Part shown: positions 14,265 to 15,184 of the stretch, piece after piece | Numbering within the stretch: the first letter of the stretch is position 1 | How the letters are laid out: every line of letters starts with the position of its first letter | The notes under the pieces: model-generated | What the model was told of the DNA's origin: nothing | Seen by the model: the letters and a program-made list of their open reading frames with translations, nothing else | The model's database searches: none | Assembly: GCF_001646665.1 (NCBI RefSeq) | Contig: NZ_LWBU01000017.1 | Span: 1 to 64,000 of the forward strand | Direction of reading: 5' to 3' | Source: Streptomyces noursei | GTDB lineage: Bacteria; Actinomycetota; Actinomycetes; Streptomycetales; Streptomycetaceae | Length of the DNA: 64,000 bases | Program-made: the position numbers and the translations under genes

Positions 14265-14423
14265 CCCGGCACCCCCTGCAGGACGTGTACTCACGTGCAT
14301 GTGCACGCCACCGGCCATTCAACTGGAACGTGACCCAGAGCACAGCCGGTTCCCGGAAATCACCCGGTGCGAAAAAAGCGGTTGTGGGGCGCGGGCGGGG
14401 TTCCTAGGGTGTGGAGCACACGA

Positions 14424-14439
14424 AGAAAGGAGGTGATCC
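14424..14439 (+). promoter_or_regulatory. 16-base perfect complement of the 16S rRNA 3' end
   Basis: AGAAAGGAGGTGATCC is exactly complementary to the last 16 bases of Streptomyces 16S rRNA (GGATCACCTCCTTTCT). Its GGAGG core ends 10 bases before a GTG codon. A Shine-Dalgarno sequence this long is far beyond what efficient initiation needs and would hold or stall the 30S subunit. Confidence 0.7.
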
Positions 14440-14443
14440 GGAA

Positions 14444-14482
14444 GTGGTTTCTTTTCGGATGCGTGAGGTGACTGCGGGCTGA
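14444..14482 (+). CDS. putative 12-residue leader peptide
   Basis: GTG at 14444 opens a frame encoding MVSFRMREVTAG and a TGA at 14480. It is placed behind an extreme ribosome-binding site and is followed within 30 bp by stable hairpins, the layout of a leader peptide or ribosome-sensing element. I recall a similar sequence in other Streptomyces but cannot name a function. The nearest downstream gene on this strand is the small membrane protein at 14768. Confidence 0.4.
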   Translation: MVSFRMREVTAG

Positions 14483-14510
14483 GGCCTGTTGTCGCACTCT
14501 GTGCAATGTC

Positions 14511-14612
14511 GGCAGGCCTCCTGCCGCAATCCCAAGCAGTCACCGACCCGCGGGTTCGCCGGCACATCCGGCCGGCCTCTCCGTCAGGAGAGCCAGAGCC
14601 CGCGGGTTTCTG
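14511..14612 (+). other. hairpin-rich leader or small RNA region
   Basis: Two compact stems are visible: GGCAGG-CCT-CCTGCC at 14511-14525 and CTCTCC-GTCA-GGAGAG at 14577-14592. The palindrome CCCGCGGG occurs twice (about 14547 and 14598) and the copies could pair with each other. With the strong ribosome-binding site upstream, this looks like a structured RNA element rather than coding sequence. Confidence 0.4.
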
Positions 14613-14767
14613 CTTGCCCGGACCGGACGGCGGCGCGCCCCCGGCGCGAGCCGGAACCGGAACGGGCTCCGGACCGGGCTCCGGGACGGCTCTGAGTACG
14701 TACACGCGTACGAGGGTGAGTACCGGCGCCGATGCCCCGGCCGCCGCCCGCCGCGCACGATGGCCGC

Positions 14768-15184
14768 ATGAACGCCACCGACCCGACCGCGACCGGAACC
14801 ACGGCGACCGGCACGGCCGCGACCGCACCGGCGGCCGACGGCGGCCCCGGCGCCCTCGCCCCCGCCACCGCCCCCGGCGGCGACCCCTTCGCGCCGAGCA
14901 CCGGGGCCGTGCGGGTCTTCGCGGGGACCGGGCTGGTGCTGCTGGTGGGCGCCTTCCTGGTGACCGTGGTCCTGATGCTGCGGCAGTCCTTCGCGGGCGA
15001 CGGCGCGCCCGGCCCCCTCAAGGAGCTGGCGATGTGGTCCCTGAGCCTGTCCGGGCTGGTGGGACTGTGGGCGATGTGCCTGCCCGGCGACGCGGTGGGC
15101 CACCGGGTCCGGCGCGGGGCGGTGTTCGTCCAGTACGCGCTGATGGCCGGCGGTCCGCTGCTGGCGGCCTTCGACCCCTCGTAG
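14768..15184 (+). CDS. small integral membrane protein
   Basis: The 138-residue product starts with a Thr/Ala/Gly/Pro-rich low-complexity segment (1-45) followed by about three hydrophobic helices (about 48-70, 84-104 and 115-135). No family recognised. It ends four bases before the convergent pdxH stop codon. CACGAT lies six bases before the ATG, so the transcript may be leaderless, or the gene may be read from the structured leader upstream. Confidence 0.6.
   Translation: MNATDPTATGTTATGTAATAPAADGGPGALAPATAPGGDPFAPSTGAVRVFAGTGLVLLVGAFLVTVVLMLRQSFAGDGAPGPLKELAMWSLSLSGLVGLWAMCLPGDAVGHRVRRGAVFVQYALMAGGPLLAAFDPS

Follow-up and report, generated by a model that had tools for sequence, protein, structure and literature searches.

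We propose that the RNA encoded at positions 14418-14615 (+ strand) of the window, the whole 64,000-nt stretch of Streptomyces noursei DNA analysed here, is a stand-alone switch of the RF02471 family that would be refolded by a ribosome crossing a 12-codon frame near its 5' end. This reading leans on a folding model, and we put its probability at roughly 0.55. Using cmscan, the small RNA model RF02471 (Ms_IGR-5) was matched over its full length (model positions 1-184 of 184) with 78.3 bits against a gathering score of 45, and this was the sole match in the assembly. The score over the whole model, together with the actinobacterial distribution, assigns the RNA to RF02471. Conservation of the block beyond this strain, left as a question by the first-pass annotation, proved extensive: of the 121 genomes examined for the genus, 120 carry RF02471 (S. 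noursei included), as do 192 of the 296 sampled for the class; for the phylum, 57 of 296 had a match at E ≤ 0.001, and 26 of those exceeded the cut-off. All of these counts are lower bounds, because stricter filters applied in searches of more than 40 genomes. A module identical to that of S. noursei is present in other Streptomyces records, such as L257. RF02471 was absent from 14 control genomes, and under strict filters no match was obtained in G008, G401, G128, G338, G370 and G381 (98-100% complete by estimate), where loss, divergence or a gap may be the cause. Neither a phage nor a plasmid origin is supported, as no match was found at E ≤ 1e-5 among 50,697 phage and 72,556 plasmid records, and a tRNA or tmRNA was rejected because ARAGORN called 0 genes in the window. 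In a literature search that covered mostly sources outside subscription journals, we found no function, reading frame or pseudoknot described for RF02471.

The feature that first drew attention to this locus is a run of sixteen bases said to match the complement of the 16S rRNA 3' end exactly, followed by a GTG, a 12-codon frame and hairpins. The sequence bears out each of these elements. The 16-mer (AGAAAGGAGGTGATCC, 14424-14439, + strand), which holds the Shine-Dalgarno core, is the complement of the whole tail of the strain's own 16S gene; this gene lies on the reverse strand and its tail reads GGCTGGATCACCTCCTTTCT, the mature tail being taken to end at ...CCTTTCT. The frame occupies 14444-14482 and several hairpins come after it. 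The site had also been described as stronger than any normal Shine-Dalgarno sequence, and it is indeed unusual, since the next-best site in the window pairs at 12 of 16 positions in a run (G-U counted, both strands). A pattern search of the 7.64 Mb assembly placed AAAGGAGGTGATCC at two positions, the RNA locus and the 16S gene only, and the shorter AAAGGAGGTG at five, compared with four for a reversed control pattern. One of these five places precedes a gene that resembles, at its start, what we presume to be ribosomal protein S6. With up to 3 mismatches allowed, the 16-mer occurred at 2 places in the window versus 0.14 expected. No conserved long coding frame was seen to enclose the 16S match.

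What is conserved across the family is wobble-tolerant pairing with 16S rRNA, not the perfect 16-mer. A perfect 16-nt Watson-Crick match was found at 3 of 93 Streptomyces loci and a match of at least 15 nt at 25 of 93. When G-U pairs were allowed, the complete 16-nt site paired with the 16S tail at 178 of 218 loci, and 207 of 218 had an unbroken run of at least 15 pairs; both counts cover 218 of the 221 loci and presuppose that every genome shares a single 16S tail. Of 292 genomes in the phylum sample, 127 yielded the exact 20-nt tail, and a miss may reflect either an unassembled rRNA gene or a different tail. In addition, position 14436 is A in S. noursei and in 14 of 92 aligned sequences, and 11 of these 14 mispair in helix P2 (below) yet fit the 16S tail. 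This pattern, together with the G-U-tolerant pairing counts, suggests that the long complement to 16S is likely under selection in its own right. Complete pairing at so many loci would also suit a decoy that holds 30S subunits by the free 16S tail and withholds them from other messages, the frame being a by-product. We consider this distinctly unlikely, as an in-frame start and stop would be superfluous for a decoy and yet are kept, and part of the 16S complement doubles as a strand of P2.

Instead, the exceptional ribosome-binding site likely serves the 12-codon frame (MVSFRMREVTAG), which runs from GTG at 14444-14446 to TGA at 14480-14482 on the + strand. To compare this frame across the family, 221 loci were read, of which 217 had a recognisable Shine-Dalgarno core, lying in every case no more than 34 nt from the predicted 5' end; these gave 193 distinct modules. 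Among the four loci that lacked the pattern, L178 and L181 have a slightly altered core and, on visual inspection, an ATG frame; L225 is truncated at a contig end; and L227 is false, being a second RF02471 match in one genome (27.8 bits) that lacks a Shine-Dalgarno core and appears fortuitous. In 191 of the 193 modules, a start codon was retained 6-11 nt downstream of GGAGGTG, with a frame reaching the same stop site. Frame length was 12 codons in 153 modules, and 10, 13, 14 and 15 codons in 2, 13, 20 and 3 modules, respectively. Both ends varied in their letters, with ATG (96), TTG (51), GTG (29), CTG (8), ATC (4), ATT (2) and ATA (1) as starts and TAG (148), TGA (27) and TAA (16) as stops. 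The distance from the Shine-Dalgarno core to the stop was spread over all three phases (113/41/39), and ATG, GTG or TTG stood at +6 to +11 in the frame of the stop in 177 of 193 modules, compared with 7 and 2 modules for the two alternative frames; with near-cognates included, these numbers became 192, 20 and 9. When the loops were shuffled, a canonical start fell in the frame of the stop in 23 modules on average and 37 at most. Furthermore, earlier stops were absent from the frame of the stop in 189 modules, and from the other two frames in 18 and 53. In L102 and L105, one base fewer ahead of the stop shifts the GAGGTG frame, and a ten-codon frame still closes. As for the two exceptions, L123 has lost the stop and the next codon serves as one, and L049 has ACG at the start position, as does L300. 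Start and stop vary in letters and remain in register, which indicates that their functions are what is kept. By these sequence features, the mini-frame shows every mark of translation.

At eight loci (L067, L083, L084, L088, L094, L095, L049 and L300), AUU, AUC, AUA or ACG takes the place of the start codon after the same strong site, and non-canonical starts thus appear to be tolerated there. Ribosome-protected reads cover the homologues in Mycobacterium abscessus and M. smegmatis, according to a mycobacterial study (PMC4974804). The same study also names tRNAs, riboswitches and other sRNAs with ribosome reads (PMC4974804); since other non-coding RNAs carry such reads, those on the homologues fit translation yet could be an artefact.

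The first-pass annotation had looked to conservation of the peptide, and this was not found in codons 2-5. Across 1186 related pairs drawn from the 153 frames of twelve codons, close relatives differed 979, 998 and 864 times at the first, second and third codon positions of codons 2-5. This even spread, without third-position bias, gives no sign of selection on residues there. Codons 6-12 are more constant than codons 2-5 and the same bases form the helices; because they are held at least by RNA structure, their constancy says nothing on selection of the peptide. The RNA might nevertheless be a dual-function sRNA with the 12-residue peptide as its product, for which one can cite the retention of the frame in nearly all modules and the E and V that occupy positions 8 and 9 of all 153 twelve-codon frames. 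We consider this very unlikely: the frame ranges from 10 to 15 codons, the invariant residues coincide with helices P1 and P3, and residue conservation beyond the RNA constraint was not detected in codons 2-5. A functional peptide is therefore not supported, codons 2-5 being free to vary.

We next describe the fold that shares its bases with the frame. The 189-nt stretch at 14424-14612 folds with -100.9 kcal/mol (z -5.18 against 200 shuffles). All strands lie on the + strand. P1 pairs CACG (14419-14422) with CGTG (14462-14465) in codons 7-8. In the minimum-energy fold, P2 has its 5' strand at 14436-14440, overlapping the anti-16S stretch, and its 3' strand within CGGATG (14456-14461, codons 5-6), and pair counts identify the latter as the 5' strand of a pseudoknot as well. 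The 3' strand of the pseudoknot, CATCCG (14565-14570), lies in the inner loop of the terminator domain. P3 joins GGTGACTGC (14467-14475, codons 8-11) to GCAGTCACC (14536-14544), and P5 (14545-14608) is a GC-rich, terminator-like stem with inner hairpins and arms at 14545-14557 and 14596-14608.

Covariation was assessed with custom scripts for pair counts and strand shuffles on a MAFFT alignment of 92 of 147 sequences (less than 80% identity, 12-codon frame, match of 170-236 nt), from which L044 and L226 had been excluded beforehand. For P1, 96.1% of the cells were paired with 31 double-change cells (shuffle maximum 88.6%); for P3, 97.9% with 29 double-change cells, above all 500 strand shuffles (maximum 95.0%); for the pseudoknot, 88.9% with 42 double-change cells (maximum 84.1%); and for P5, 95.6% with 176 double-change cells in 91-92 sequences (maximum 82.8%), although the aligned sequences, like the close pairs above, are akin, so that the shuffle counts overstate independence. 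P2 was 96.2% paired with 3 double changes and did not exceed its shuffles (maximum 96.2%). Covariation, which the first-pass annotation had proposed to look for in the hairpins, is thus seen for P1, P3, P5 and the pseudoknot, and P2 has weak support. Since P2 and the pseudoknot use one common strand, they are mutually exclusive, and the weak support for P2 combined with this sharing leaves the resting fold uncertain.

Within the pseudoknot, the three inner pairs are nearly invariant and the two outermost are often unformed. One pair was CG in 87 and UA in 5 of the 92 sequences with zero mismatches; mispairs at the two outer pairs included, among the 92, CA (12), AA (7) and CC (6) for one position and TT (7), AC (7) and AA (5) for the other. 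In a partner-strand test, an exact 6-nt partner of the module's own pseudoknot strand was found in the 3' half of 88 of 193 modules, compared with 12.8 on average and 23 at most when strands were swapped. Of 16 modules with rare strands, among them the CGGATG of S. noursei, 13 had a 5-nt partner, and none was found in L104, L107 and L177. The Rfam consensus for RF02471 differs from this fold, in that it pairs the P3 5' strand locally, leaves the P3 3' strand unpaired and includes neither pseudoknot nor frame. In the literature searched, we did not find in print a conserved frame without a conserved peptide in this family, nor a pseudoknot formed with the coding strand.

To model how a ribosome might act on this fold, 88 of the 92 aligned sequences were folded with masked positions in a model without pseudoknots. 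The median probability that the P3 3' strand is unpaired was 0.09 for the free RNA and 0.03 when a 30S subunit occupied the start; it rose to 0.45 for a ribosome positioned at the stop and to 0.54 when both were present. For the S. noursei RNA, the corresponding values were 0.07, 0.10, 0.45 and 0.55. For P5, a ribosome at the stop made no difference to the prediction (0.24 and 0.24). In this model, therefore, the switch is predicted to be thrown when the ribosome completes the frame and not when it binds. In the mechanism that we propose, the anti-16S site would load ribosomes very efficiently, and transit through the mini-frame would open the pseudoknot together with P1 and P3. On reaching the stop codon, the ribosome would expose the P3 3' strand at 14536-14544 and free the terminator loop. 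Selection would act on translation itself, and the switched RNA may inform a partner in trans about initiation or ribosome capacity; presumably the freed 3' half would deliver this output by base pairing or by binding a protein.

A rival account is that translation is protective, with a loaded ribosome shielding the 5' end and the 3' half acting as an ordinary base-pairing sRNA. The closeness of the Shine-Dalgarno core to the predicted 5' end (217 of 221 loci) and the unconserved codons 2-5 are both consistent with it. However, protection needs neither a fixed structural stop site nor codons placed inside P1, P3 and the pseudoknot, and we regard this account as rather unlikely. We therefore favour the ribosome-gated switch, and the ribosome-sensing part of the first-pass proposal becomes the best reading of the locus, as we infer it; the other part, attenuation of the gene at 14768, did not hold.

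The gene at 14768-15184 lies on the same strand and begins 153 nt past the RNA, an arrangement that would suit a cis leader attenuating this gene, proposed earlier to encode a membrane protein. When its protein was compared with the 1.5-kb flanks of 36 Streptomyces loci (tblastn, E ≤ 1e-5), it was found beside the RNA at one of them, that of S. noursei itself, and had no match at the 35 others. By Pfam names, pdxH lies downstream of the RNA at 30 of the 36 loci, and on the opposite strand at 29 of 36; other families have different and variously oriented neighbours, as judged from a rough gene call. No conserved co-directional downstream gene was thus found, and a conserved role as a leader of the 14768 gene was rejected. 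In S. avermitilis, moreover, the homologue is classed as an sRNA unit (PMC8780764), and we judge the cis leader to be extremely improbable. The 14768-15184 protein has no Pfam family, and its gene is perhaps a local insertion between the RNA and pdxH.

The alternative that the first-pass annotation had offered, a stand-alone RNA, fared better. A relative in S. avermitilis is among 139 sRNA transcription units with a mapped start and end (PMC8780764), the sRNA label there being set by a distance of at least 500 bp to the next gene (PMC8780764), and the S. lividans homologue SLIV_16488 is marked as detected by RNA-seq (PMC8079986). The separate sRNA unit of S. avermitilis and the S. lividans transcript make a stand-alone RNA the better reading. 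The ends of the S. noursei RNA are predicted near 14418 and 14610, and a -10-like hexamer, TAGGGT (14405-14410, + strand), lies 7 nt upstream of the predicted 5' end. Of the 193 distinct modules, 192 were counted, and in 170 of these the pattern TAnnnT ended 5-12 nt upstream of the 5' end (169 of them at 6-7 nt); a control placed 40 nt farther upstream at an equal offset gave 0 of 192. Strict scans found neither a sigma-70 consensus promoter nor a terminator at the locus, the latter probably missed due to a poor T-tail.

Similar layouts were also found outside Actinobacteria. A pattern scan of genomes returned at least 118 stretches, many from Actinomycetota, and among the matches listed at least 31 loci had an alphaproteobacterial form. 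Titles were available for 23 of these listed loci: 21 name genera or families that we take to belong to the order Rhodobacterales, and 2 name only Alphaproteobacteria or Proteobacteria. All 30 readable alphaproteobacterial loci among the matches listed have a GTG frame of exactly 18 codons, closed by TAG (13), TGA (10) or TAA (7), with a well conserved first part and variable last codons. Near full-length anti-16S sites, the 18-codon frame and a terminator-like stem were observed at L241:3660-3872, L233, L290 and further alphaproteobacterial loci. Among the 31 listed loci, arfB begins on the same strand no more than 300 nt from the site at 18 and 0.7-1.1 kb away at 4 more; it was not found at 9, 2 of which have at most 115 nt of downstream sequence. 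Two of the encoded proteins scored 188.2 and 179.3 bits against NCBIfam NF006718 (alternative ribosome rescue factor ArfB). The Rhodobacterales RNA is therefore a candidate ribosome-sensing leader of the ribosome-rescue gene arfB. With the L241 protein as query, no arfB match was found at E ≤ 1e-6 in the available flanks of the actinobacterial RNA, and a link to ArfB was rejected there. A pattern-scan match at L310 appears, by eye, to be a chance match within coding sequence. On the minus strand of L279:1371-1549, from a MAG labelled Deltaproteobacteria, we observed a similar layout with P3-like complementarity (GGTGACTGAG and CTCAGTTCACC); it scored 24.5 bits against RF02471, below the cut-off, and the contig is possibly misassigned.

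The Caulobacter sRNA CC2171 (RF01867) resembles RF02471 in its consensus 5' end, which reads GAAAGGAGGUGAUCCAG and then GUG. Its body differs from that of the S. noursei RNA, and membership was rejected because the window scored 20.3 bits against a cut-off of 75; the one Rhodobacterales locus that was scored reached 32.5 bits against the same cut-off. The actinobacterial and Rhodobacterales RNAs may be homologous or convergent. It is conceivable, though rather unlikely in our estimation, that RF02471, CC2171 and the RNA preceding arfB in Rhodobacterales form one ancient cross-phylum class that gauges translation capacity by its own translation, combining a full-length anti-16S site with a mini-frame that does not matter as peptide and with a fold that ribosome transit switches, and giving a report in trans in actinobacteria and control of ArfB in cis in Rhodobacterales. 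The arfB association would tie such RNAs to ribosome rescue.

If the switch reading is right, RF02471, near-universal in the genus (120 of 121 genomes) and for which we found no published function, gains a testable logic. It would be a gene selected for being translated and not for its peptide, and a natural reporter of ribosome availability. Its AUG near-cognates behind one extreme Shine-Dalgarno site would form a start-codon series ready for studies of initiation. Leader-peptide attenuators, such as the erm and amino-acid operon leaders, share with it a short frame set in alternative hairpins; it differs from them in that the neighbouring 14768 gene is not conserved beside the RNA and codons 2-5 of the peptide are unconserved. 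The dual-function sRNAs SgrS and SR1, as described in PMC11133741, differ from it in that peptide conservation was not found here in codons 2-5, and resemble it in that they are likewise sRNAs that carry a reading frame.
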